The notes below the pieces were generated by a model that was given only the letters and a program-made list of their open reading frames with translations, was not told the DNA's origin and searched no databases. A stretch of 34,483 nt of DNA from a virus, in the IMG/VR virus record IMGVR_UViG_3300046798_000022, positions 1-34,483 of that record; one strand, 5' to 3'. Shown piece after piece: positions 5,203 through 34,483 of the stretch (position 1 is the stretch's first letter; each line of letters begins with the position of its first letter). Both the position numbers and the translations under genes were made by a program.

Positions 5203-5647
5203 CGGTAATGCCACCTTTCGCCCAAATGTGAAACACGGCCCGCGGGAATTCGCCGGCCGCCGCGTAATGCTTCCGCGCGATCAGGAGCGTGACTTGCGCA
5301 TCGTCGTGCCACACGACGCCCGTGAGCGCGTCTTTGACGGCCCTCGCGAGTTTGTCGGTATCCGGTTTCGTGATGTGCGGGAAGTCGATCAGCGCGTTGC
5401 GCTTCGTCTCGTACTTCTGCGGCCGCGGGAGGTAGAACGTGACGTCGAGCGCGACCGGCACGGCCGTCAGCGGTAACAGCCCCTGATGGGACATCGCGAT
5501 CGCCGCCACTTGCGCGATGTCGCGCGCCCAGGCTTTGCACTTCAGATTGTCGTTCGTCACAATAATCCGATTCGTGCCCCGCTGACGAAAGGCCTTCGTT
5601 GAGCCCTTCGGCTGACTCACGCCGGCCACGGTAAAGGAGAGCGTCAT
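5117..5647 (-). CDS. rusA: RusA-type Holliday junction resolvase
   Basis: The 176-residue protein matches the RusA family: an N-terminal strand (SFTVAGVSQPKGSTKAFRQ), a basic middle, then the signature KPDTDKLARAVKDAL at 94-108 and WHDDAQVT at 113-120. The aspartates of these two motifs are the expected metal-binding residues for cutting four-way DNA junctions. The start ATG at 5647 overlaps the Dam-type methyltransferase stop as ATGA; the longer frame upstream is the antisense side of that gene. The last 25 residues or so (ADAESRFDRQRAQRGSPGTV) look unlike the family and lie over the start of the next gene, so the tail may be a lengthened or shifted end. It acts late in replication to resolve branched DNA before packaging. 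Confidence 0.9.
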   Translation of the reverse strand: MTLSFTVAGVSQPKGSTKAFRQRGTNRIIVTNDNLKCKAWARDIAQVAAIAMSHQGLLPLTAVPVALDVTFYLPRPQKYETKRNALIDFPHITKPDTDKLARAVKDALTGVVWHDDAQVTLLIARKHYAAAGEFPRAVFHIWAKGGITDGIYERSAADAESRFDRQRAQRGSPGTV

Positions 5648-6099
5648 GGCCTGAACACCACCACCATAGAAGGGAACGGCGCCGGATCTTTGCAGCCGCC
5701 GAACTTCAAGCGGCCTGGCAGAAATCTGACCTCCACGCCTGGTCTCGGACGATGCGCCGCAGCGTCCCAGATGTGCGCGTGAAACGCTTTCGTATCGGTT
5801 CTGGCTGGCAGGAGCATCACCGTCGTCACGCCATTCAGCCGCTCGGCTGCGGCCTTTGAGATGAACAGTTTGGATAAACCGCGCGAATATGGCGGGTTGC
5901 ACCAGACCGGCCCGACGGTCGGCCATCGCGCGGCCGTCAATGCCGAATGAGACTCGCTCCAATAGATCGGGCATTTGCTGTTGTCTCGACTCGCCGCCAT
6001 GTCAGCCACGAACTGGAATTCGAGATCGAGCAGATCCCAACAATCCTGCGGCGTGCTCCATTCGTCAGACTTGGAACTGAACATCAGTGCGTTATTCAC
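5644..6099 (-). CDS. Phage Dam-type N6-adenine DNA methyltransferase
   Basis: The 151-residue protein has the phage Dam family layout: SDEWSTPQDCWDLLDLEF near the start, a D-x-AAS segment (FVADMAASRDN), and the catalytic NPPY at 68-71 in GPVWCNPPYSRG, followed by a hydrophobic strand (VTTVMLLPARTDTKAF) and an ending FGG...PFPSMVVVF. Members methylate adenine, often in GATC, and protect phage DNA from restriction. The GTG at 6099 overlaps the upstream stop as GTGA and has a GGGGGAAG ribosome site; the ATG at 6084 is a second choice. The neighbouring RusA and replication genes place it in the DNA-metabolism operon. Confidence 0.88.
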   Translation of the reverse strand: MNNALMFSSKSDEWSTPQDCWDLLDLEFQFVADMAASRDNSKCPIYWSESHSALTAARWPTVGPVWCNPPYSRGLSKLFISKAAAERLNGVTTVMLLPARTDTKAFHAHIWDAAAHRPRPGVEVRFLPGRLKFGGCKDPAPFPSMVVVFRP

Positions 6100-6413
6100 A
6101 GCTTCCCCCGTCGCGTGCGCCCGGCCGCCAGTAACACATCGTCGACAGGCTCTGACATCGCAGCCCGATACGCCGGAAACATCCGCGCAATGTCCTCCGG
6201 CTCGGCCCAATCCTCGATCATCACGATCCGCTCGTGCGCGATCCCTTTGATCGCCGCCCAGACGTGCCACAGCGGATTGGTCTTGCGCCCGCAGTTCTCA
6301 CCGACGCGCCACGCCTGACCCGCCGCGCAGAGGCAGATCCCGAAGTCGTCCGGATCGCCGGAGTGATAGCACAGGCGGATGATGCCCTTGTCGCCGCAGT
6401 GCTGGCAGTTCAT
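6096..6413 (-). CDS. Small cysteine-rich hypothetical protein (105 aa)
   Basis: The N-terminus holds two cysteine clusters, MNCQHCGDKG and a later ICLCAAGQAWR, with a further cysteine in GENCGRK, so it probably binds zinc. The C-terminal half is helical and ends in a basic tail (AAGRTRRGKL). It is coupled to both neighbours by ATGA and GTGA overlaps. Small zinc proteins like this are common in phage early operons. No specific function is seen. Confidence 0.68.
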   Translation of the reverse strand: MNCQHCGDKGIIRLCYHSGDPDDFGICLCAAGQAWRVGENCGRKTNPLWHVWAAIKGIAHERIVMIEDWAEPEDIARMFPAYRAAMSEPVDDVLLAAGRTRRGKL

Positions 6414-7857: not shown

Positions 7858-7874
7858 GACGACTCCTGATCGTC
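7858..7874 (-). promoter_or_regulatory. Hairpin with ribosome site in its loop
   Basis: On the minus strand GACGA and TCGTC pair around a 7-base loop (TCAGGAG) that contains the AGGAG site of the DUF1376 gene. It could hide or display the ribosome site depending on stability or a bound protein. Confidence 0.4.
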
Positions 7875-7882
7875 TGTGGTTA

Positions 7883-7917
7883 GGTGACGCCGGCCGTTGC
7901 TCGCGGCTTGCGTCACC
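7883..7917 (-). promoter_or_regulatory. Bulged hairpin upstream of the DUF1376 gene
   Basis: GGTGACGC and GCGTCACC pair over 8 bases with an inner GCCG/CGGC stem, giving a bulged hairpin in the 100-base gap. It has no U-run. With the hairpin at 7858-7874 it makes a structured leader for the replication gene. Confidence 0.42.
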
Positions 7918-7953
7918 GACACTTTACACGCTCCCCGCTGGCTGTCGCAACCA

Positions 7954-8166
7954 TCAATAACTCAGATTCGAGTCCGGCACCATGTGCGCCCGAGGCCGCA
8001 TGCGCTCGACTTGGGTAAAAGCCAGTGCCGTAAAGCCGTCAGTTTTTGCGCCGATCCACCAGGAAATATCCGCCGAAAACCGCCGGTTTTTCCGCTCGTT
8101 TTCCGGAATTTCCGGCCCCGATCCGTATTCCGCCGCGTGCTCCTGTTGCGCCTGGATGCGTCCCAT
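7954..8166 (-). CDS. Small hypothetical protein (70 aa)
   Basis: The ATG at 8166 has a GGGGG site 6 bases upstream and fills the space after the methyltransferase gene. The sequence is soluble and mixed: QAQQEHAAEYGSGPEIPE, then a basic NERKNRRF and SADISWWIGAKTDG. No motif is recognised. The same DNA is open in several frames on both strands, so this is the most likely of several possibilities, not a certain gene. Confidence 0.45.
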   Translation of the reverse strand: MGRIQAQQEHAAEYGSGPEIPENERKNRRFSADISWWIGAKTDGFTALAFTQVERMRPRAHMVPDSNLSY

Positions 8167-8185
8167 GTTCGGCCCCCGATCGTGG

Positions 8186-9151
8186 TTACGCTGTTCGTTC
8201 CGTCGAGAATAACGGTGCTACCGCTCCGATGCGCTTGCGTGCCAGTTCGACGTACGCCGGATTTAATTCGCAGCCTATGAAATCGCGATTGTTGCGAACC
8301 GAGACGGCGCCCGTCGTGCCGCTGCCGGCGAACGGATCGAGCACCAGATCGCCAGGACGCGACCCGGCGAGGATGCACGGCCGGATCAGATCCTCGGGGA
8401 AGGTGGCGAAGTGGGCTTCGGCGTAGGGCTGCGTCGCGACGTGCCACACGCTGCGCTTGTTGCGAGTCGATTGCATGTCGCCGACTCTTAACGTGCTGCG
8501 CCCGCTACCGTTTGTGGTCTGGCCGTCCCTGCAAGCCTTGTCCCGAGCGTCATAGCGTCCTAATGCCTTCCACGATGTTTCTGCGCTGACAGATTCCATG
8601 ATGGCGCCAGCGTCGTAGTAGTAGCGCGCGCTTTTGCTCAGCAGGAAGATGTATTCGTGCGCCTTCGTCGGCCGGTCCGTCACGCTCTCAGGCATGGGAT
8701 TGGGCTTCGACCAGATGATGTCTGAACGGAGGTACCAGCCGTCGGCCTGGAACGCGAAGGCCACGCGCCAGGGGATGCCGACCAAGTCTTTCGGCTTAAT
8801 GCCGGCAATCTTGCTCTTGTCCATAGCGCGGCCACTACCGCCGTCAATATGACTCTGACGAGCAGCCGCGCCCCGCTGTCCGACCGACCCTGAAACAGAG
8901 GCGCTATACGAGTCACCTAAATTAATCCAAATCGTACCGTCATCCCGCAGCACCCGCCGCACCTCGCGGAACACCGCCACGAGCTGCGCCACGTAGGCGT
9001 CAGGCGTCGCCTCTAGGCCGATCTGGCCATCGTGCCCGTAGTCCCGCAGGCCCCAGTACGGCGGCGACGTCACGCACGCCTGAACGCTGCCAGCTTCGAC
9101 CGTGGAAAGGCTCTCGCGCACGTCGCCGCAGATGACCCGCCACTCGCTCAT
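8186..9151 (-). CDS. DNA methyltransferase, N4-cytosine/N6-adenine, beta class
   Basis: The 321-residue enzyme has catalytic motif IV first (TSPPYWGLRDYG, SPPY at 29-32) and the SAM-binding motif I last (LDPFAGSGTT, about 271-280), which is the order of the beta class. Other family segments are VFREVRRVLRDDGTIWINLGDSY and IIWSKPNPMPESVTDR. It transfers a methyl group from SAM to an exocyclic amine of adenine or cytosine. The start ATG at 9151 overlaps its upstream neighbour as ATGA; the longer frame reads antisense into that gene. No restriction endonuclease accompanies it, so protection of phage DNA is more likely than a full restriction system. Confidence 0.92.
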   Translation of the reverse strand: MSEWRVICGDVRESLSTVEAGSVQACVTSPPYWGLRDYGHDGQIGLEATPDAYVAQLVAVFREVRRVLRDDGTIWINLGDSYSASVSGSVGQRGAAARQSHIDGGSGRAMDKSKIAGIKPKDLVGIPWRVAFAFQADGWYLRSDIIWSKPNPMPESVTDRPTKAHEYIFLLSKSARYYYDAGAIMESVSAETSWKALGRYDARDKACRDGQTTNGSGRSTLRVGDMQSTRNKRSVWHVATQPYAEAHFATFPEDLIRPCILAGSRPGDLVLDPFAGSGTTGAVSVRNNRDFIGCELNPAYVELARKRIGAVAPLFSTERTA

Positions 9152-9525
9152 CGGTGCACCTTCGGCCGTTGCGAACCAAAGGCGTGTGACGGCCCGGCGT
9201 CCTGTCCCTGTCGGCGTTCCGACACGTCTCGCTGCCGCTCGCACAGGCGGCACCAGAGGCGCCGGAGGCCCATGTCATCGTTCCCGCCGTGAAAGACGCG
9301 CTCACAGTCCGCGCAGACGGTATGTGGGCCATCTGGCGACCAGTCGATCGGCGGCGGCCCGAACGCCTCCGGGATGTGCCACTGGCCCTTACGTGGCCCT
9401 TCGACAACGAAGACTTTGAGAAACTTCTGACCCGTCGAACGGTTCGTGCACTCGCGCACGTAACCGACGCTCCCGGCGCCGTCCTCGAGCCGATCCCCGT
9501 CCTGATACTGCGGCCGGTCCCTCAT
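9148..9525 (-). CDS. Zinc-finger-like hypothetical protein (125 aa)
   Basis: The N-terminal half is polar and acidic (YQDGDRLEDGAGSVGYVREC) and the middle is beta-like (KFLKVFVVEGPRKGQWHIP). Then comes a four-cysteine cluster, VCADCERVFHGG followed by LWCRLCERQRD, which fits a treble-clef or HNH-like zinc site without a visible HNH catalytic triad. ATGA overlaps couple it to the coiled-coil protein upstream and to the methyltransferase downstream, so it may assist one of them in DNA binding. Confidence 0.66.
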   Translation of the reverse strand: MRDRPQYQDGDRLEDGAGSVGYVRECTNRSTGQKFLKVFVVEGPRKGQWHIPEAFGPPPIDWSPDGPHTVCADCERVFHGGNDDMGLRRLWCRLCERQRDVSERRQGQDAGPSHAFGSQRPKVHR

Positions 9526-23718: not shown

Positions 23719-24486
23719 TCAGAGCCAGCCTTTTTGTTGCTCGTCGAAGTCGAGCGTAATCGAGTCGAGATACTGGCCCGCGGTTTCGGTCGGCGCGACG
23801 TAGAGAAACTCGCGCAGATCCGTGGCGAGATCCACGAGCATGGCGTCGGTATCGTCTTCGTCGCGAATCAGCAGGAAATTCTTGAACTGGCCTTGCGTAT
23901 CGCGCTCAAGCGCCAGCAGATCATCGCGGACCTCTTCGCCGAGCGCCGTCGCATGCAGGCCACGATACCGGACCCCGAGGCCAAGCTTTTTTTTCACGCC
24001 GTAATCGGTGACGTGCACGATCGTCCGATGCGTTTCTCGGTCGCTCGGATTCGGCGCCCATTGGATCTTGAGCTCGCGCAACGTCTCGACGAGCACCGGC
24101 ATCCCGAGCGCCACGCCTGACGCCCCTGTCAGCGCAATATCCCAGGTGGTGCTGGAGGCGTTCGCGACCGTGCGCAGATCGACCCACGGATCGAGATAGA
24201 GCCCGTCGAGCGGCAGCGCCGGAATCGTGACGGCCTCATTCAGCCCGGCGCCGTTCGTCACCTGGATCGCCGTCGCATTCGTGTTGATGAAGGCGATCGC
24301 CTCGAGCGATTGTGATCCGGCGAACGTCGCCCGATAGGTGATCGTGGTGCCGCTCGACTTCGCCACGGTATAGACGAAGGCGTCGGACAGATTCGCCAGC
24401 GGGTACAACGAATCGACCGAGCCGGCCGGGACGCTCCACGTCGCGTCGTTCGTGACGATGTCGGAAGGCCTGGAATAGAGCGCCAT
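23719..24486 (-). CDS. Distal tail-like protein (255 aa)
   Basis: It directly follows the tape measure gene, with a TGATG overlap, which is the position of the distal tail protein in siphoviruses. The sequence is beta-rich in the first half (TTITYRATFAGSQSLEAIAF) with a carbohydrate-binding-module look, and the second half has RETHRTIVHVTDYGVKKKLG and FKNFLLIRDEDDTDAMLVDL. The end (SITLDFDEQQKGWL) is a strand-rich tail. It probably forms a ring at the tail tip joining tube and hub. Confidence 0.66.
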   Translation of the reverse strand: MALYSRPSDIVTNDATWSVPAGSVDSLYPLANLSDAFVYTVAKSSGTTITYRATFAGSQSLEAIAFINTNATAIQVTNGAGLNEAVTIPALPLDGLYLDPWVDLRTVANASSTTWDIALTGASGVALGMPVLVETLRELKIQWAPNPSDRETHRTIVHVTDYGVKKKLGLGVRYRGLHATALGEEVRDDLLALERDTQGQFKNFLLIRDEDDTDAMLVDLATDLREFLYVAPTETAGQYLDSITLDFDEQQKGWL

Positions 24487-27400
24487 CAGGACACCATCCG
24501 TCGGACGATCGTCTTCACGCCGCGCGCGTTCGTCGCGTTTTCCCGGTGGAGCACATCCACCACGGCATCCTCGAGCACGCGTTTAAGGCTCGAAATCTGC
24601 GCCTCGCTCTGTAAGGTCGGATTGTTGACGGCGATCGAGACGGTGACGGACACGCCGCCAGAGCCGGCATCGGCCGAGGCCGGATACCCGCCGCCCATCC
24701 ATTCGCGATTCATGCGCTCGAATCCCTCGCGCCCGATCACCCGCATGGCGTCGGCGTTGACGATGCCCTCGCCCTCGGCCGCCATCACCGGAATCCGGTC
24801 CGCGCCGGCCGGTGCCGGAAAGTCGAGCACGCGCCCGATGATGCCGCCGCCGGCAAACCGCCGCTTTGGAGCACTCGTGCCGGTGCCCGATGTGCCAGTC
24901 GGCGGCGTCGACGTGGAATCCGTGCCGCCCGTGCCGCCGGCCGGCGTCGCCGTCCCGCCGCCCGTGCCTGTCGATCCCCTCGGCACGGCCTGCCCCGTGG
25001 CCTCTGCGGCCCCGCGCGCCCGGCCGAAGCCTTCCTCTGCGCTCGTGCCAACCTTGCTGAAGGCGTCGATCAGATCCTGGAGCTTGGCGATCAAGTCGTC
25101 GATCGATTGGGACAGCGGTTTCTCGAATTCGAGACTTCCGAAATCGGTGAGCTTGTTACCGTTGTCGTCGATCAACAGCCCGGCCTCGATCATGGCCTTG
25201 ATGATCGGTTTCATCCCCTCCGGGATCTTGAACCCGGCTTTCAATGCCTCGGTGACGAGATCCTGTACCGACTTCTGCATGCCGACGAGCACGGTATTCG
25301 TATCCGCTCCGGCCGACTGCAACAGTGTCCAATCGTCGATGATCTGTTTCGCGATGTCGTTGATCCGCAGTTGGTTGACGGCCTTGCCCAACTGCTCAAC
25401 CTTGATCCCGTAGCGCCCGGCCGCGGCCTCGACGTCCTTGAAGGCGACGACGGCCTGCCCGGACATGCCCAGGAGCGCGCGCGCGGCCTCTTCGGATAGC
25501 TTGCCCGAGCGGATCAGCGTTTCCAGCATCGGCTGGAGCGCCGCCGGGATCTTCTGTCCGGTCTGGACCGCATCGATCACGAGCTGCGAGAGGCCGCCGG
25601 ACATGGCGTCCAGCCGTTTCGTCACGTCGACGCCAGCCAGCCCGAGCGCGCGGAAATCCAAAATCAATTGGCGCGTCTGCTGATCGATGTTCGCTTGCTG
25701 GATCGTGTCGCCGAGATCCTTCCAGGTGAGCCCGTATTTCTGGAGGCGCGCATTGCTGTCGGCGACGGCCTTATCGAACTGCGCCAGCGCGATATTGAAG
25801 GCCGACAAGCTGCGCGTCGTGAGCAGGCCTCCGGCCGAAGAATCGAGGCCAGCCGTGAGCGCCGCCGTCGAGATCGCCGCCTTGCCACCCCGCTGCGCAA
25901 TCGCCGCCGCGGACTGACCGCCGAGTTCGTCGCGCGTGATCAGCTTGATCGCCGCTTGGATGATCCCGAGGTAGCTCAGGGTATTCGTCGCGACGTTGGC
26001 GATCAGGCCCGCTGTATTGATCAGGCCGTTGTTGAAATCGTCGATCGCCTTATGCATGGCGACGGTCGCATTGACCGCCGACCCAATATTGCCGATGAAC
26101 ACGCCGAACACGCCGGGAATCATGCCGCCGACGTGCTCGAGCGCAGACCCCACGGCGAGCCAATCGGCCGTGAGATCGCCCGTCACCTTTTTTAAGGCCT
26201 GCTGATAACGCTGCCAGGCTGCGCCGAGCTGTTCCGTCGTGTACAACCCAGACGCCAACATCTGATCGTAATCACGCTTGAACGCATCGGCCTGTTGCTT
26301 CAGCTCGCTCCGTGTCAGGATGCCGCTTGCGTGCATCCGCTCGACGAGCGTGTCGGCCGTACCGAGCGCTACACGAACCTGGTGATCGTAGAATTCATCG
26401 ATCGCCGCGCGCCGCTGTTTCGTGATCCCAGATTCGACATCGCCGACGTTTTTAATGCTGCGAATCTCGGCCGCCCGTGCCATCTCGATCTGTGCGAGCT
26501 GTCGATTCAGGCCGCTCGTGCCCTGCAAGGCGAGCTGATCGTTCAGCTTGCCGAGCGCGACGACGCTCTCGACGATCCCGGCTGTCGACGCATCCATCAC
26601 CTTCCGCTGATGGTCGACGAAGTCCTGCGCCTGCTTGTCGGCCAGCTTCAGCGCATCCGTGCGGCCCTTCTCGACGGTCGCGACCTCTTTCACCTGGACG
26701 GCCGTGACGTGCAGCGCGCGCGCGATGTCGGCCTCTGAATTTCCACGCTTCAGCAGCCAGGCTACCGTCTCTCGCTGTTGACCGACCAGATCCTGACTCG
26801 ACGCCGACAGATGATCTTGCGCTTCGGTGAATTTCTTTTGCTCGGCTGCGGCTTCCGCGATCGCCTTTTTGTGATCGGCGTATCGCTCTTTCAGGAGCGA
26901 CAGCATTTCTTCGGTGATGCCGAAGCGATTGATGATCTCGTCGTTCGACTTGCCGAGTTTTTCGGCCGCCATCACCTCTTCGATCGTCGTCATCGAGAGT
27001 TTGGCGACGGCGATCTCGGCTTCGCGCAGTGCCTTTGTGTAGGATTCGACCTGCTCGACTGGCGGCACCACTTCGGCCGGCTTCGTCGTCTTTGCCGGCT
27101 TCGTCGCCGCCACGACGCCGCCGACGAATCCCTTCGCGGCTCCGAAGAGACTGGACGATTCGGCAAGGCTCGCCGCCGCGATCGCCGCCAACGTCTTTGC
27201 GGACTCCACAACGCCGGCACGGCCCGCGGCCTGAGCAATCACCGCCGCCTGGCCGAGCGTTGACGTGATGTCCTTTTGACGATCCTTGACGAACAGATCC
27301 CAGGCGTCCGACATCGCATCGATCGCCTCGAGCTGTTCCCGACTGGCCTTGTGCGCGCCGTCGGCGATCTTGTCCCATCCTTCAGAGATCGCCGGCAGAA

Positions 27401-28280
27401 TTTCACCCGCGCCTTTCCCGAACAGCTTGATCGCGTCTTCGTTTCTCCGCTGTGCGTTCTCGACGCCGCCGAGCGCACGCGCGATCGTCTCGAACTGCTG
27501 ATCGACGCCCATCTTTCGGACGTCCTGCCAGGAGAGGCCGAGATCCTCGACGGCCTGCCTGACGCTGCCTTTTCCACCCGAGATATTCGCGCCAAGTTTG
27601 AACGCCGCCGTCGTGAACGCCTCGAGCGACGAGCTTGTGAGCGCCGCCGCGGCGTCCATCTTCTGAATCGAATCCGTAGACAGGCCGGTCTTATTCGAAA
27701 GATCGAGGATGTGTCCTGCGGATTCGATCGAGGCCTTCGTAAACGACAGGAGCGACGACGCCGCCGACGAAATCAGATTGCCGATCGCGAAACCGCTTGC
27801 GAGCTGCGCAACAGAGCCAGTCAGTAGCGCCATCCCTTTTGACGCAAGCGTCGCCTTTTCGCCAACTGGCGACAGGCTCGAGGCCAGGGATTGCAGGGAT
27901 GCCGGAGCGGCCTTGCCGAGCGCCGCATATTTCGCCGTCGCGTCGCCGATGATCCCGCTCAGTTTGGATTGCTCGGCCGCTGTCAGCTTCGAGACGCCGC
28001 CGATCGCCTCGACGGCTTTGGCGTAGGTATTCGCCTTCTCGATCGCGTCGAATCCGATCAGCGAGGCGACCGCTTTCGAGAGGCCGCGCGTGCCCTCTTC
28101 GGCCTTCGTGAAGGCCTTCCCCATCGCCGCCGAGACGGCCTCGGATTGCGTCCCGGCGGCCTTGATGTCTTTGGTAAATTGCTGCGTCGCCGATGCGGCT
28201 TTTGCCACGCCGGCCTGATATTCTGCCGAGTCGGCCGACAGCAGGACACGCAGGATCCCGACGGTTGCAGAGGCCGCCAT
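24486..28280 (-). CDS. Tail tape measure protein (1264 aa)
   Basis: This is the longest gene and lies right after the tail assembly chaperone, the standard tape measure position. It opens with a helical region (VGILRVLLSADSAEYQAGVA, then AASATQQFTKDIKAAGT), has long coiled-coil stretches, hydrophobic segments (ALLTGSVAQLASGFAIGNLI; FGVFIGNIGSAVNATVAMHK) and a Gly/Thr/Ser/Pro-rich linker near residues 1125-1165. No lysozyme or peptidase domain is obvious. Taking about 1.5 Angstrom per residue, the tail would be roughly 190 nm. The ATG at 28280 overlaps the chaperone frameshift stop as TGATG. Confidence 0.9.
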   Translation of the reverse strand: MAASATVGILRVLLSADSAEYQAGVAKAASATQQFTKDIKAAGTQSEAVSAAMGKAFTKAEEGTRGLSKAVASLIGFDAIEKANTYAKAVEAIGGVSKLTAAEQSKLSGIIGDATAKYAALGKAAPASLQSLASSLSPVGEKATLASKGMALLTGSVAQLASGFAIGNLISSAASSLLSFTKASIESAGHILDLSNKTGLSTDSIQKMDAAAALTSSSLEAFTTAAFKLGANISGGKGSVRQAVEDLGLSWQDVRKMGVDQQFETIARALGGVENAQRRNEDAIKLFGKGAGEILPAISEGWDKIADGAHKASREQLEAIDAMSDAWDLFVKDRQKDITSTLGQAAVIAQAAGRAGVVESAKTLAAIAAASLAESSSLFGAAKGFVGGVVAATKPAKTTKPAEVVPPVEQVESYTKALREAEIAVAKLSMTTIEEVMAAEKLGKSNDEIINRFGITEEMLSLLKERYADHKKAIAEAAAEQKKFTEAQDHLSASSQDLVGQQRETVAWLLKRGNSEADIARALHVTAVQVKEVATVEKGRTDALKLADKQAQDFVDHQRKVMDASTAGIVESVVALGKLNDQLALQGTSGLNRQLAQIEMARAAEIRSIKNVGDVESGITKQRRAAIDEFYDHQVRVALGTADTLVERMHASGILTRSELKQQADAFKRDYDQMLASGLYTTEQLGAAWQRYQQALKKVTGDLTADWLAVGSALEHVGGMIPGVFGVFIGNIGSAVNATVAMHKAIDDFNNGLINTAGLIANVATNTLSYLGIIQAAIKLITRDELGGQSAAAIAQRGGKAAISTAALTAGLDSSAGGLLTTRSLSAFNIALAQFDKAVADSNARLQKYGLTWKDLGDTIQQANIDQQTRQLILDFRALGLAGVDVTKRLDAMSGGLSQLVIDAVQTGQKIPAALQPMLETLIRSGKLSEEAARALLGMSGQAVVAFKDVEAAAGRYGIKVEQLGKAVNQLRINDIAKQIIDDWTLLQSAGADTNTVLVGMQKSVQDLVTEALKAGFKIPEGMKPIIKAMIEAGLLIDDNGNKLTDFGSLEFEKPLSQSIDDLIAKLQDLIDAFSKVGTSAEEGFGRARGAAEATGQAVPRGSTGTGGGTATPAGGTGGTDSTSTPPTGTSGTGTSAPKRRFAGGGIIGRVLDFPAPAGADRIPVMAAEGEGIVNADAMRVIGREGFERMNREWMGGGYPASADAGSGGVSVTVSIAVNNPTLQSEAQISSLKRVLEDAVVDVLHRENATNARGVKTIVRRMVS

Positions 28281-30552: not shown

Positions 30553-30900
30553 TCAGCCCTTCGCGATCGTCATCAACGCGATCTGCTGGTTCAGCCCGAC
30601 TGGCGCCGCCGTCACGATGTCGTAGATCCGGCCGGCGTAGGTCAGCCGCCGATACTTCGGCACGTTCAGCCGCTCCGGATCCATGTTCGCCTGATAGGGC
30701 ATCGTCCACCGTGTGTCGTACCGCGAATCGAGGCCCTCATTCTGGAAGGCCTCATCCCCGGCCGAGTCGTCGCGTTTCATCCAGCAGTCACAGAGGCGGA
30801 TCCAGGTTTCGACCGGCCGCCCAGACGGCCCGACGGTTTCCGTCATCTGCTGGATCGTCACCAGTTTCGTCCGCGCGCCGGCCGCTGCGATGCTCGGCAT
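30553..30900 (-). CDS. Head closure/head-tail adaptor protein
   Basis: The 115-residue protein matches small beta-barrel head-tail adaptors (SPP1 gp16 type): TKLVTIQQMTETVGPSGRPV near the start, WIRLCDCWMKRDDSAGDEAF in the middle, TRWTMPYQANMDPERLNV and the conserved RRLTYAGRIYDIVTAAPVGL end. It closes the portal after packaging. Its start overlaps the last glycosyltransferase stop as TGATG, so the sugar cassette and the head genes are read together. Confidence 0.82.
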   Translation of the reverse strand: MPSIAAAGARTKLVTIQQMTETVGPSGRPVETWIRLCDCWMKRDDSAGDEAFQNEGLDSRYDTRWTMPYQANMDPERLNVPKYRRLTYAGRIYDIVTAAPVGLNQQIALMTIAKG

Positions 30901-31535
30901 CAGGATTCCAGCCTCGACAGCGCCGGGACGTCCCAGGGCTTCGGCCGCCCGTGAAAGCAGACGACGCGCGCGCCGGCCGGCACACCCCGATCCCGACAGT
31001 GCACTTTGTAGGACACGGCCTGACCAGGGACGACATCATCCCAGAACGTGACGGCCTCGAGGCGTTCGCGCTCGATCCACCGCTGATCGCCGCCGGTCAG
31101 ATACCGCGCCATCACCCCACCGGCATCGGCCGCAAACCGGGTATAGAGTTCGTCCTGTTCGCCCGCCGTCCACATCATCAGACCCGACCCGAGCCCGCGC
31201 ACCGGCTGGATCGGCGGCCGCCGGTAGAAGTCGGCCAGCGCCAGGAACGGCTCGCGCCGCCGGATCATGTCGTCGAGCGGCCCGACAATCGTCGAATCCA
31301 GGTCCAGATAGAGGATCCGCGCGCCGGCGGGAAACATCCCCGGCGCGAACAGTTCCAGCTTCGCCCACCAGCCCGACCAGCGGCCCGACAGCGGCACCGT
31401 CGGCACGCCCGGCACCGGAACATCTGACAGGCAAACGATCGCCTCGCCTGGGGCAAATGTGCGAGCCTGACCGGCCAGCCGTTGGACATGCTCGGCCCGA
31501 TAGGCGCCGCCGGACCGCAGGACACAGGCGATCAC
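30900..31535 (-). CDS. Glycosyltransferase, GT-A fold with DxD (211 aa)
   Basis: The start (VIACVLRSGGAYRAEHVQRL) and the VPTVPLSGRWSGWWAKLELF segment resemble sugar transferases that read a nucleotide sugar. A clear DxD motif lies at 78-80 in ILYLDLDSTIVGPLDDM, which would bind the metal and the nucleotide sugar. The end, VVCFHGRPKPWDVP, is like the closing block of family-8-type enzymes. The acceptor is unknown. The GTG at 31535 overlaps the upstream stop as GTGA. Confidence 0.8.
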   Translation of the reverse strand: MIACVLRSGGAYRAEHVQRLAGQARTFAPGEAIVCLSDVPVPGVPTVPLSGRWSGWWAKLELFAPGMFPAGARILYLDLDSTIVGPLDDMIRRREPFLALADFYRRPPIQPVRGLGSGLMMWTAGEQDELYTRFAADAGGVMARYLTGGDQRWIERERLEAVTFWDDVVPGQAVSYKVHCRDRGVPAGARVVCFHGRPKPWDVPALSRLES

Positions 31536-32242
31536 GGCTGCACCTCGATCCGCTCGTGATCCCATCGGCCGGCCCTGAACACCCGTTCCGCCTTCATCGC
31601 GTCGAAGGCCGCCCGGTTGCCCCGGCCGAACCAGTTCTCCCGCTCGCCGACGTGCGCGACCCGGAACGGGACGCACTGCACCGTCTTGCCGGCCTTCCGC
31701 CAGCGGTCCATAAACCGGTTGTCGTAATTCCCGGCGTGCGTCCAATGGCAGTCGAGCAACGGCGAGGCCTGGACGACGGGATCGGCCGAATGGTACAGCT
31801 GGAAATAGCCGACGCCAGGCACATCAAACGCGCACTTCGCCTGCCCGCGATCCTCGAGCGCGTCCGGTTGCGCATCGTAGCGTAGACAGCCGTGGAGCCG
31901 ATCCGGCTGCGGCCGGCTCCGGTCCAGCCGTGCCAGCCAATCATCTGGCGGAACGACGTCCGAATCGAACAACAGCCGCCAGGACCGCTCGCCGCCGATC
32001 CGCTCTTCCATCCACAGCCGGGCGGCCTCGAGCGCACGCCCTTTGTTGAATGAGGCCCCGTCCCGGTAAAACAGATCCGTCACGAACACTTTGACGGCCG
32101 CCTCGGCGCACAGCTCGATCGTCGCGACATCCCGCGGCGCCGTGACGACCGTGAGCGATTCGAGGCCGGACAGCCACCGCGGCAGGCCGACCCGGAGAAA
32201 CTCGGCGTAGTCGACGCAGACGGTGAGCCCGTGGATCTTCAT
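31532..32242 (-). CDS. Glycosyltransferase-like protein, GT-A fold (236 aa)
   Basis: The protein begins with a Rossmann-like half (HGLTVCVDYAEFLRVGLPRW, ESLTVVTAPRDVATIELC) and has GASFNKGRALEAARLW at 62-77 and a DSD motif at 93-95 in LLFDSDVVPPDDW, as in GT-A enzymes that hold a metal and nucleotide sugar. Later segments (HWTHAGNYDNRFMDRW, PFRVAHVGERENWFGRGN) resemble family 2-type ends. The ATG at 32242 overlaps the methyltransferase stop as ATGA; a longer frame runs antisense into that gene. Confidence 0.72.
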   Translation of the reverse strand: MKIHGLTVCVDYAEFLRVGLPRWLSGLESLTVVTAPRDVATIELCAEAAVKVFVTDLFYRDGASFNKGRALEAARLWMEERIGGERSWRLLFDSDVVPPDDWLARLDRSRPQPDRLHGCLRYDAQPDALEDRGQAKCAFDVPGVGYFQLYHSADPVVQASPLLDCHWTHAGNYDNRFMDRWRKAGKTVQCVPFRVAHVGERENWFGRGNRAAFDAMKAERVFRAGRWDHERIEVQP

Positions 32243-32769
32243 GGCTTCGTCACCCACCAGGACACCGATTCCTGCGGCTCGAGCGTCGTGTGCAGTTCGA
32301 GGCCTTCCGTCCGGACGAATTCGTCGACGGCCTGCCGGACGCCGCTGCATTCCTGCGTGTAGTCGTGCCCGGCCAGGATGCCGCCCGACACCACCTGCGG
32401 CCACCAATCGGCGATGTCGGCCTTTGCAGAGGCGTAGGCGTGATCGCCGTCGATGTAGACGAATCCCGGATGATGGTACGGCAGGCCCGGCATGAGCTCG
32501 GCGGCCCGGTGTCCCGTCATCCGCAACAGGCGGAACTTCTGACGATACGGCGCCAGGAGCTGCACCGCGATCAGCAGATCCGGCAACCGGTCGAAGTCCA
32601 TCTGATCGTAGGGCGCCCACGGATCGACGCAGACGAGCACCTCGGCGCACTTCCACCGCTCGAGCAGCGCCGACGCGAACAGCCCGCGATCGCACCCGAT
32701 CTCGATCCCGCGTCGGATCCCGCGCTCGTTCAGCAGATCGGCGAAATTGACTCGGCTGTGGAGCTTCAT
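32239..32769 (-). CDS. Class I SAM-dependent methyltransferase (176 aa)
   Basis: Motif I is GIEIGCDRG at 21-29, followed by VLVCVDPWAPYD and, later, FVYIDGDHAYASAKADI (IDGDHAY at 106-112) and GGILAGHDYTQE. This matches Methyltransf_24-type enzymes that methylate small molecules or sugars; DNA-methylase motifs are absent. Placed between three glycosyltransferases, it likely methylates a sugar. The ATG at 32769 overlaps the upstream stop as ATGA. Confidence 0.82.
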   Translation of the reverse strand: MKLHSRVNFADLLNERGIRRGIEIGCDRGLFASALLERWKCAEVLVCVDPWAPYDQMDFDRLPDLLIAVQLLAPYRQKFRLLRMTGHRAAELMPGLPYHHPGFVYIDGDHAYASAKADIADWWPQVVSGGILAGHDYTQECSGVRQAVDEFVRTEGLELHTTLEPQESVSWWVTKP

Positions 32770-33722
32770 GCTGGCACCCCGGCCGCCGCGGTCGCAATCG
32801 CCAAATCGAGCGTCCGTCCGATCGACCGATAATCGTAGAAGTCTCGCGCCTTTGCGGACCATTCCAACCGCTCGTCGAGATCCCAGCATCGCAACTGATC
32901 CGAGATGACGGTCCGCAGTTCCCGGAGCCCGATCGTCGGCTTCACCCGAATCAGCGCCCCATCGATCGCCGGGAGCACGTCGAAGGCCGGGAGATCGGTG
33001 ATCACCGTGCAGCCGACGGCGACCGATTCGATCATCTTCCGGAGCGCAAACCCGAACATCGACGCCGTCGCGATGTGCACCTTATACCGCGCCAGGTGCC
33101 TCAAGTACGCCGGCGTCGTGCTCCCGGCGTTGCCGTAGCCTGGATGTTTCAGGACATCGATCCCGAGCAGCGCCTTATCCCGCACGACGCGCTGCCGGAG
33201 CGGGTAACTCTTCGAGACGGCGCCGGACACCACCGCGCCGCCGCGCGGCCGACGTAGGTCGATCGGATCGAGATCGGCGACGTTGACGGAATGGTACGTC
33301 CGGATCAACGCCTTCCCCTGCAACCATCCGCTGTGTTGTTCAACGGATCGCGGATGGTAGTAGACGATCGCCGCATCGGCCCCGACAGAGTCGAAGAATT
33401 GCGCCTGATACGCCAGGCTCGTCGCCGCATCTTTGACCACGACGGCCTTGAAAGCGCCGTGGTTTTGCAGCGACGACACGCGCCCGAAGCCAATATCCTT
33501 ACGGAAACAGATCGGCGAATTCGGATCCCAATCGCGCGGATCGTGCACCACGACGTGATCCGGCCGATAAGCGTCGAGTATTTCGACGACGTCAGTCCGC
33601 CCGTCGTATCCCGCGCCCGCGAGCGTCCAGCCGGCCGCCCGCAGCCCTTCTTGGAACTGGTCGCCCTCGCTCGTCATGTGACGGCGATAGTCGATGTTCG
33701 CCAGAACGACGCGCGCATTCAT
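32766..33722 (-). CDS. Glycosyltransferase, GT-B fold (318 aa)
   Basis: The first 130 residues form a Rossmann-like half (RVVLANIDYRRHMTSEGDQF, later VEILDAYRPDHVVVHDPRDW and AVVVKDAAT). The second half has RGGAVVSGAVSKSYPLRQRV, then KVHIATASMFGFALRKMIES and VAVGCTVITDLPAFDVLP, the pattern of GT-4-type nucleotide-sugar binding. The E in KMIE-S may be the conserved catalytic glutamate; the second glutamate of an EX7E pair is not present. The ATG at 33722 overlaps the radical SAM stop as ATGA. Confidence 0.74.
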   Translation of the reverse strand: MNARVVLANIDYRRHMTSEGDQFQEGLRAAGWTLAGAGYDGRTDVVEILDAYRPDHVVVHDPRDWDPNSPICFRKDIGFGRVSSLQNHGAFKAVVVKDAATSLAYQAQFFDSVGADAAIVYYHPRSVEQHSGWLQGKALIRTYHSVNVADLDPIDLRRPRGGAVVSGAVSKSYPLRQRVVRDKALLGIDVLKHPGYGNAGSTTPAYLRHLARYKVHIATASMFGFALRKMIESVAVGCTVITDLPAFDVLPAIDGALIRVKPTIGLRELRTVISDQLRCWDLDERLEWSAKARDFYDYRSIGRTLDLAIATAAAGVPA

Positions 33723-34483
33723 GGCGTCCCGCTCCGAAGCCGCTGATAGTCCGTCGGCGAGTCCGTCGGCAGGCTCGTCAGGTCGCCGTGGAGCTGCCCC
33801 GAGACGTGCGGCGACTTCAGCCGGCCGGCGATCAGCGGGACGAACGAGGCCGAGTAGTCATACGTCGCGTCCACGTCCCGGTGTCCGAGGCGCCGGAGCG
33901 GCACGCCGCAGCCCTGATCGCAGCATTGCCGGACCTGATGCCCGAATCGGTCCATCTTGAATTGCCACCATCCCGAGACCGCCGGGATCCCGTGGTTCTC
34001 TCCCCGGATGCCGTCGAGCGCCCCCGCGACCTCGCAGAAGTACGCGAACGGCGCCCCGTCGCGCTCGAATATCGCCGCACTCCACCGCTGATTGATGTCG
34101 CAGGATTCGCGCGCCGCGATCCACTCCGACGGCAGCATCCCGAGATCCCGCCAGTCGAGCAACAGCGGCGAATGCCACGACGCCCGATCCCGCGACGTCG
34201 GGATCAGTCGGCCCGGTAGCCACTTGTCGATCTCAGCCGCGGCCGCTGCGTCAGCGTGCGCGTTCAGGTTGAACCGGCCGAGCGGATAGAACGTGTCTCG
34301 CACAAGCTGCCCGTGCTTCATCAGGTTATTCGTCCACAGGCCCCGCTGACGCTGATCCGGCACCTCTTCGACCAGGACCGCCATCAGGTCTGCGAATCTG
34401 GGATGCACGCAGGGATTGCCGCCGAACACGCCGCGGATTCCCGGCCAGCCCTTCAGCGACCGCAGCGCCTGGCGGAACACGTC
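33719..34483 (-). CDS. Radical SAM-like protein, 5' end outside the window
   Basis: The visible 254 residues begin inside the enzyme. A GGNP-x-VHP motif (FGGNPCVHPRFADLMAVLVE) is like the GGEP motif after the CxxxCxxC cluster, and WTNNL follows as in the strand after it. The C-terminal half has several cysteines (ESCDINQRW, AYFCEVAG, RQCCDQGCGVPLRR), which fit an auxiliary iron-sulfur or SPASM-like site. The cluster-binding CxxxCxxC would be in the part cut off, so the family call is strong in pattern but not complete. A GTG at 34480 is not the true start. The substrate is unknown; the sugar genes downstream suggest a modified sugar or peptide. Confidence 0.72.
   Translation of the reverse strand, partial: DVFRQALRSLKGWPGIRGVFGGNPCVHPRFADLMAVLVEEVPDQRQRGLWTNNLMKHGQLVRDTFYPLGRFNLNAHADAAAAAEIDKWLPGRLIPTSRDRASWHSPLLLDWRDLGMLPSEWIAARESCDINQRWSAAIFERDGAPFAYFCEVAGALDGIRGENHGIPAVSGWWQFKMDRFGHQVRQCCDQGCGVPLRRLGHRDVDATYDYSASFVPLIAGRLKSPHVSGQLHGDLTSLPTDSPTDYQRLRSGTP

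Follow-up and report, generated by a model that had tools for sequence, protein, structure and literature searches.

Gene content and organization of the locus

The stretch of DNA analyzed here, referred to below as the window, comes from IMG/VR (IMGVR_UViG_3300046798_000022), where it is a linear virus record of 34,483 bp. Its last part, positions 30,900-34,483, is occupied by a cassette of five genes that encode a radical S-adenosylmethionine (SAM) enzyme, a glycosyltransferase (GT) of the GT-B fold, a methyltransferase, and two further glycosyltransferases, named here GT-A1 and GT-A2. All of them, like the neighboring genes relevant to the cassette, are on the minus strand, and all are complete except the first, which is cut by the window end. 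The gene of the twitch-type radical SAM enzyme (33,719-34,483) retains codons 44-297 of 297, its first 43 codons with the CX4CX2C cysteine triad lying outside the window. It is followed by the genes for GT-B (32,766-33,722; 318 amino acids), the methyltransferase (32,239-32,769; 176 amino acids), GT-A1 (31,532-32,242; 236 amino acids), and GT-A2 (30,900-31,535; 211 amino acids, GTG start). The next gene, which belongs to the context rather than to the cassette, encodes the head closure protein Hc1 (30,553-30,900, minus strand; PF05521 Phage_HCP, E = 1.1e-11; phrog_25).

The five junctions read ATGA, ATGA, ATGA, GTGA, and TGATG, with overlaps of 4, 4, 4, 4, and 1 nucleotides, the last one leading into Hc1. 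An earlier note on the window had described five coupled genes running by overlaps into the head closure gene, and this description is borne out, with Hc1 identified by both Pfam and PHROGs. Compared with a relative of about 90% identity (L017), every cassette gene has a ratio of nonsynonymous to synonymous substitution rates (dN/dS) of 0.07-0.17. Thus, all cassette genes are under purifying selection, and, given also the overlapping junctions, the gene set is real rather than a chance arrangement.

The cut gene can be completed from another contig, IMGVR_UViG_3300046526_000085 (43,006 bp), which overlaps the window by 10,762 nucleotides with five mismatches; with this 99.95% identity it can be used as an extension of the window. 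The whole radical SAM gene occupies positions 7872-8765 of locus L002, and its 297-residue product starts with MKAPTDKSNDTIQIVISRSCDLMWCSNCTQLL and contains the triad CDLMWCSNC. A sixth coupled gene lies upstream of it, outside the window (L002:7276-7875; 199 amino acids). Its product belongs to phrog_4603, labeled 'alpha-2,3-sialyltransferase' (E = 3e-51), is a homolog of P1 PmgO, P7 HdmB, and D3 orf7, and matches PF01973 (MptE-like) weakly, with 28.5 bits, under the Pfam cut-off of 34.6. The finding is therefore larger than the earlier note had it, with six genes, a new conserved phage family of radical SAM proteins, and, as shown below, a strict gene unit.

Further upstream on the extension contig are genes for the head-tail adaptor Ad1, a collagen-like protein, the portal, a fused protease and capsid protein, and the terminase. 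Downstream of Hc1, in this order, are genes for a tail-completion or neck protein, a tail-completion protein, the tail tube, and the tape measure. The six cassette genes are located exactly between Ad1 and Hc1. Because Ad1 and Hc1 are direct neighbors in phage D3, the cassette looks like an insertion at the Ad1/Hc1 joint.

Some features of the surrounding genes may be mentioned here. The collagen-like protein (L002:5875-6954, outside the window, between the portal and Ad1 and about 0.9 kb upstream of the sixth gene) is rich in Lys and Asp and has up to 20 Gly-X-Y repeats, and up to 35 repeats (GPPGPPG) in sister lineages. The tape measure protein (24,486-28,280, minus strand) contains a Thr/Ser/Gly-rich linker near its C-terminus (TPAGGTGGTDSTSTPPTGTSGTGTS). 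Two genes at 5644-6270 and 8186-9253 on the minus strand resemble DNA methyltransferases by eye, one being similar to phage Dam and the other having TSPPYWGLRDYG. Hence, DNA methylation in this phage has its own enzymes, apart from the cassette.

A family of twitch-type radical SAM proteins

Taken alone, the radical SAM protein of the window matches no family at the thresholds of Pfam, PHROGs, and NCBIfam. The Pfam Radical_SAM domain is matched by eight of 11 relatives (best E = 1e-5), but not by the window's own protein. Successive scans of IMG/VR for relatives yielded 14, then 29, and then at least 105 viral contigs, of which 80 were retrieved; motif conservation was read from 87 aligned full-length members and triad spacing from 90 loci.

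The N-terminal triad (C20, C25, C28) is present in 86 of the 87 aligned members, the remaining one being cut at this place. Seventy-two loci have the spacing CX3CX2C, and 17 of the 90, including the window clade, have CX4CX2C; the latter, a one-residue insertion, is found on two separate branches, the window clade and L032/L033/L077. The earlier note had proposed to look for a CxxxCxxC motif upstream of the window: the cysteine triad is indeed encoded on the extension contig, but with one extra residue in this clade. Invariant in all 87 members are the GGN motif, His119, His147, Cys171, Trp177, Ser178, Cys193, Glu194, Cys231, and Cys235. In radical SAM enzymes, a GGE motif binds the methionine end of SAM; here, its place is occupied by GGNPCVH (residues 64-70; 34,403-34,423, minus strand). 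The predicted auxiliary-cluster (twitch) region with Cys171, Cys193, Cys231, and Cys235 is encoded at 33,908-34,102 on the minus strand.

The AlphaFold2 model of the protein has a predicted local distance difference test score (pLDDT) of 90 and a predicted template modeling score (pTM) of 0.89. In a Foldseek search against the PDB, SpeY, titled 'Twitch Radical SAM Dehydrogenase' in the match list (E = 5e-7), and BtrN (E = 2.7e-4) are the only matches with E < 0.001. Independently of the fold match, a sequence profile of 46 members run against the PDB places BtrN on top (E = 1.9e-4). The SPASM/twitch enzymes anSME, EpeE, SuiB, and PqqE occur lower in the structural list, EpeE also in the profile list. 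BtrN oxidizes 2-deoxy-scyllo-inosamine, and its auxiliary cluster is held by four cysteines, compared with three in MoaA (PMC9012708). The family has four invariant C-terminal cysteines, matching the number in BtrN and not that in MoaA. Sequence and model together identify the first cassette protein as a genuine radical SAM enzyme whose twitch domain is predicted to be BtrN/SpeY-like.

Among viral predicted structures, the best matches are phage radical SAM proteins at about 12% identity. Phage radical SAM proteins as such are thus not new, and it is the family at hand that is undescribed in the searchable literature. Three loci (L083, L090, L091) encode a second, different radical SAM protein of about 265-270 amino acids (e.g., L091:11550-12362) with CDCSCFGC or CDLDCFGC and a canonical GGEP, in the same glycosylation islands.

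Partner enzymes

No sequence family is matched by the GT-B protein. Its AlphaFold2 model (pLDDT 93) has 69 PDB matches with E < 0.001, and those listed are GT-B enzymes; they include PimA (E = 4e-7), SdgB (E = 5e-7; a protein glycosyltransferase of SD-repeat proteins), and a glycosyltransferase of phage HY126. The EX7E donor-binding motif of GT4 is missing: the corresponding segment reads FGFALRKxIE, where R228, K229, and E232 are invariant and the first Glu is absent. The modeled protein is thus a GT-B-fold enzyme, and because EX7E is not found we do not file it in GT4.

The third gene encodes a class I SAM methyltransferase of the small-molecule type (PF13578 Methyltransf_24, E = 9.6e-14); the PHROGs label for it, 'DNA methyltransferase', was rejected in favor of the Pfam assignment. 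GT-A1 is a GT2-like protein whose D93xD95 motif is invariant in 26 relatives, up to 12 of which match GT2-family models in Pfam. When the GT-A1 profile was simply compared with that of the GT2-family partner found in another lineage, nothing significant emerged, so the assignment is based on the single-member Pfam matches and the DxD motif. GT-A2 is a member of phrog_1962 (E = 6.5e-41) and, by tblastn, a homolog of P1 PmgQ and P7 HdmD. The fold labels proposed in the earlier note for the four partner genes hold in each case. At a threshold of hydropathy 1.6 over 19 residues, none of the cassette proteins has a predicted membrane segment.

Conservation of the gene unit, fusions, and other partners

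The GT-B family was scanned for separately from the radical SAM family, with its own sequence patterns, and 44 loci were found. Forty-two of them contain a radical SAM gene, and the contigs of the other two begin inside the GT-B gene; wherever it can be tested, GT-B is accompanied by the radical SAM gene (42/42). GT-A1 occurs in 39 of the 44 GT-B loci, and four of the five exceptions end soon after the GT-B gene. It is also the commonest partner of the radical SAM gene, in 34 of 90 loci (BLAST cluster). Thus, the set of radical SAM and GT-B genes is a strict gene unit.

In some relatives the domains are joined in one protein. L068 and its relatives combine the radical SAM domain with an exostosin GT47 domain, L040 combines it with GT2, and a Methylobacterium homolog runs on into a GT2-like domain (read from the sequence by eye). 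The radical SAM-exostosin fusion in L045, L057, L064-L068, and L075 stands directly downstream of the major capsid gene and is followed by a heptosyltransferase-like gene. Further partners of the family are a GT2 protein, NAD-dependent sugar epimerases (PF01370), and, by eye, GT32-like and sulfotransferase-like proteins. A sulfotransferase-like protein recognized by its GTGRCGS/TxT start adjoins the radical SAM gene in L027, L032, L033, L037, and L077, which suggests sulfated glycans in these loci. Because of the fusions and the linkage to glycosyltransferases, a sugar is the likely substrate of the radical SAM enzyme. The role in sugar chemistry that the earlier note assigned to this protein is consistent with its BtrN/SpeY-like fold, the GT47 and GT2 fusions, and the near-obligate linkage.

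Distribution among phages and bacteria

Grouping at 70% identity yields 38 lineages of the radical SAM family. A separate glycosyltransferase is encoded within 6 kb in 26 of the 38 and a methyltransferase in at least 22, the methyltransferase counts being lower bounds since the gene caller missed short overlapping genes in contigs of high GC content. A recognized head, packaging, or tail gene is found on the contig in 18 lineages, in 16 of them within 3 kb. These structural neighbors are unrelated to each other: they include terminases of phrog_9, phrog_2, and phrog_675, portals of phrog_12, phrog_113, phrog_156, and phrog_21, and capsid proteins of phrog_617, phrog_1005, and phrog_4523. The cassette has thus moved between phages, often landing in the operon that builds the particle.

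Among 50,697 deposited phage records, thousands of actinobacterial phages included, there is no match to the radical SAM protein (three different queries, that of the window and two distant ones), to GT-B, or to GT-A1, and so no cultured carrier of the cassette was found there. In bacteria, a first genome scan with a narrow radical SAM alignment gave no match, a broader one gave six matches among 84,980 species genomes, and another 570 genomes from the same class or order are without a homolog. The homologs are thus overwhelmingly from phages, so that a refuting outcome named in the earlier note, homologs tied to a host surface-polysaccharide locus and not to phage, did not occur. Linkage to head genes is frequent but not universal, with several distant lineages carrying the cassette beside replication genes.

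One bacterial copy is informative as to its setting. In a Chromatiaceae metagenome-assembled genome (contig L098), the radical SAM homolog and a flagellin gene (E = 3e-76) are about 3 kb apart, and at a distance of 2 kb from the homolog there is a PF01973 (Maf-like) gene that scores above the Pfam cut-off. Genes resembling NeuB and an epimerase (by eye) and FliD- and FliW-like genes are found nearby. This single locus looks like an island for Maf-type flagellin glycosylation (Maf: PMC11339370). No other characterized cellular setting was found for the family, and this one belongs to protein glycosylation. The rare bacterial copies, one of them beside flagellin, suggest traffic in glycosylation chemistry between phages and their hosts.

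Proposed function and alternative explanations

We consider it probable, though only just, that the cassette is a phage-encoded system for protein glycosylation in the cytoplasm, in which the radical SAM enzyme oxidizes (or epimerizes) a sugar hydroxyl and a virion protein encoded in the same late operon would be the likeliest acceptor. This explanation builds on the enzyme classes, the cluster-binding cysteines, the conserved gene unit, and its position in the head operon. The fold comparison and the sequence profile agree on BtrN and SpeY, alcohol dehydrogenases of aminocyclitols and sugars, and together with the fusions and the linkage they point to a sugar as the probable substrate; position and the partial homologs in P1, P7, and D3 point to a virion protein as the probable acceptor.

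A possible course of the reaction can be outlined from the family assignments. The PmgO/Maf-like or the PmgQ-like transferase would put the first sugar on the acceptor protein, GT-B and GT-A1 would lengthen it into a short glycan, and the methyltransferase would cap a hydroxyl. In the radical SAM step, as the fold and the cysteines suggest, the 5'-deoxyadenosyl radical would abstract the carbinol hydrogen and the auxiliary cluster would take the second electron, yielding a ketone; epimerization is an alternative outcome. The order of steps is a guess. As the cassette has no membrane protein, the work would be done in the cytoplasm, with no need for a lipid carrier. The glycan might serve stability, defense, or receptor binding; a methylated sugar that hides the particle from host defense or antibodies, as the earlier note proposed, would be one such use.

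A broader proposal, which we put forward tentatively and with somewhat less than even confidence, is that virion proteins receive a keto (or inverted) sugar through a widespread, previously undescribed phage family of twitch radical SAM enzymes, which forms a strict unit with a DxD transferase and a new family of GT-B enzymes, and that this set moved between unrelated phages, often staying in the particle-building operon.

Several observations weigh against these proposals. As for the exact reaction, template modeling scores (TM-scores) to SpeY and BtrN are moderate, 0.44-0.55, though the best in the whole PDB. As for the acceptor, the glycosylated molecule itself is predicted from gene position only. 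The nearest recognized genes in five lineages encode a helicase, primase, or exonuclease, and about 15 lineages are without recognized context; these lineages weaken the case for a virion target but do not remove it, and the head-operon position in the window clade is clear. No single structural protein is common to all carriers. The collagen-like head protein was considered as a general acceptor and rejected, since it is encoded three genes upstream in the window's lineages and in no other lineage; for the window clade it stays a candidate acceptor. Finally, deletion or silencing of pmgO and pmgQ in P1 has no plaque phenotype (PMC10695390), a dispensability that would also fit a decoration.

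Phage glycosyltransferases are often explained as modifiers of host surface polysaccharides. By analogy, the cassette could alter the host surface during infection, in receptor masking or superinfection exclusion, as clusters of glycosyltransferases and radical SAM proteins in pelagimyophages have been read (PMC7029224). Some lineages do carry the cassette away from recognized head genes, and epimerase and UDP-sugar genes accompany some relatives. The window cassette, however, contains no membrane protein, flippase, polymerase, or lipid-carrier transferase; its overlaps, as predicted from sequence, tie its expression to late head genes; and two of its genes are homologs of genes in the P1/P7 morphogenesis operons. 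We therefore regard an action on the host surface as unlikely.

Since twitch and SPASM enzymes act on peptides, the radical SAM enzyme could also modify a residue of a virion protein directly, creating an attachment site or a cross-link, with the glycosyltransferases acting afterwards. The presence of anSME, EpeE, SuiB, and PqqE further down the structural list, and of EpeE in the profile list, is in line with such a role. Yet SpeY and BtrN, the two matches that pass E < 0.001, act on small alcohols, the fusion partners are glycosyltransferases and not peptide-recognition domains, and neither a precursor peptide nor a common acceptor gene was seen. This makes direct modification of a residue less likely still than an effect on the host surface.

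Hypermodification of phage DNA, where glycosyltransferases and the radical SAM enzyme would act on a modified base and thereby block restriction, is distinctly improbable. Hydroxymethyl-pyrimidine synthases derive from the thymidylate synthase and ThyX families, and neither thymidylate synthase (PF00303) nor ThyX (PF02511) is found in six carrier records, although all six are fragments and the absence is not final. DNA is a known target of phage glycosyltransferases (PMC6024577 and others), some lineages have replication genes near the cassette, and PHROGs labels the methyltransferase family 'DNA methyltransferase'. Against this, the radical SAM protein is predicted to fold like small-alcohol dehydrogenases, and Methyltransf_24 is not a family of DNA methyltransferases. 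Least probable is the production of a diffusible metabolite derived from a sugar or cyclitol instead of a glycoconjugate: SpeY and BtrN do belong to antibiotic biosynthesis (PMC9012708), but the cassette has no cyclitol synthase, aminotransferase, or transporter, and the radical SAM enzyme is accompanied in it by several glycosyltransferases and by Maf-like (PF01973) relatives of enzymes that glycosylate proteins.

If cytoplasmic glycosylation of a virion protein is the correct explanation, a radical SAM dehydrogenase in such a set would represent chemistry not described for viral protein glycosylation, with an oxygen-sensitive enzyme at work in the minutes of particle assembly and yielding an oxidized sugar. 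Carrier phages may thus decorate their particles with a chemically unusual sugar. Under this proposal, a virion protein should carry extra mass that bears the signature of an epimer or of minus 2 Da, and the radical SAM gene can serve as a marker for finding more such systems.

Comparison with known systems

The targets with which phage glycosyltransferases have been connected to date are DNA, host lipopolysaccharide, and, recently, virion proteins. The gtr-type systems of serotype conversion differ from the cassette, where their membrane flippase and membrane glucosyltransferase are not found at the hydropathy threshold given above. Closer in gene classes are the host-recognition regions of pelagimyophages, where cassettes of glycosyltransferases and radical SAM proteins occur in the tail-fiber region and have been interpreted as modifying the host surface (PMC7029224). 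The likeness to our set is one of gene class.

The BtrN and SpeY dehydrogenases share with the cassette enzyme the predicted fold, at moderate TM-scores, the N-terminal triad, and four cysteines for a fully ligated auxiliary cluster, the ligands being predicted from sequence. The cassette enzyme differs in being phage-encoded, in having GGN for the GGE-type motif, and, in the window clade, in the CX4CX2C spacing; identity is 12-17%. Flagellin glycosylation islands with Maf resemble the cassette in that a PF01973-family gene, glycosyltransferases, and sugar-modifying enzymes stand beside a structural protein. In contrast to these islands, the phage set has no genes for nonulosonic acid synthesis, and its PF01973 match is below the cut-off.

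Homologs of two of the six cassette genes, with 30-38% identity over nearly the full length, are found in the operons pmgO-pmgP-ppp-pmgQ of P1 and hdmB-hdmC-ppp-hdmD of P7, and D3 orf7 is likewise a homolog. The P1 and P7 operon genes are also coupled by overlaps, the P7 annotation names the hdmB-hdmD operon 'head morphogenesis', and in D3 the PmgO-like gene is in the head operon, adjoining Ad1. The three phages lack radical SAM, GT-B, and GT-A1 genes, and no gene separates Ad1 from Hc1 in D3, at the place of the cassette in the window phage.

The terminase of the window phage is closest to those of Gordonia and Mycobacterium phages. In mycobacteriophages Che8, Corndog, and Myrna, capsid and tail-tube proteins are proven glycan acceptors (Freeman et al., 2023, as reported in PMC12363180 and PMC12619734). 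The glycosyltransferases are phage-encoded in both cases; the acceptors are proven in the mycobacteriophages, whereas here they are likely virion proteins. No radical SAM enzyme is reported for the mycobacteriophage systems in these accounts, and the radical SAM, GT-B, and GT-A1 families of the window have no match among the deposited phage records. More generally, no radical SAM enzyme in a virion glycosylation set is described in openly searchable papers, subscription journals being mostly outside this search; the earlier note, which knew of no described radical SAM enzyme in such a set, agrees with this, nothing of the same make-up having been found. In summary, the cassette, whose target is probably a virion protein, is best placed with the phage glycosylation systems, a kind known in general, to which it adds a new enzyme component.

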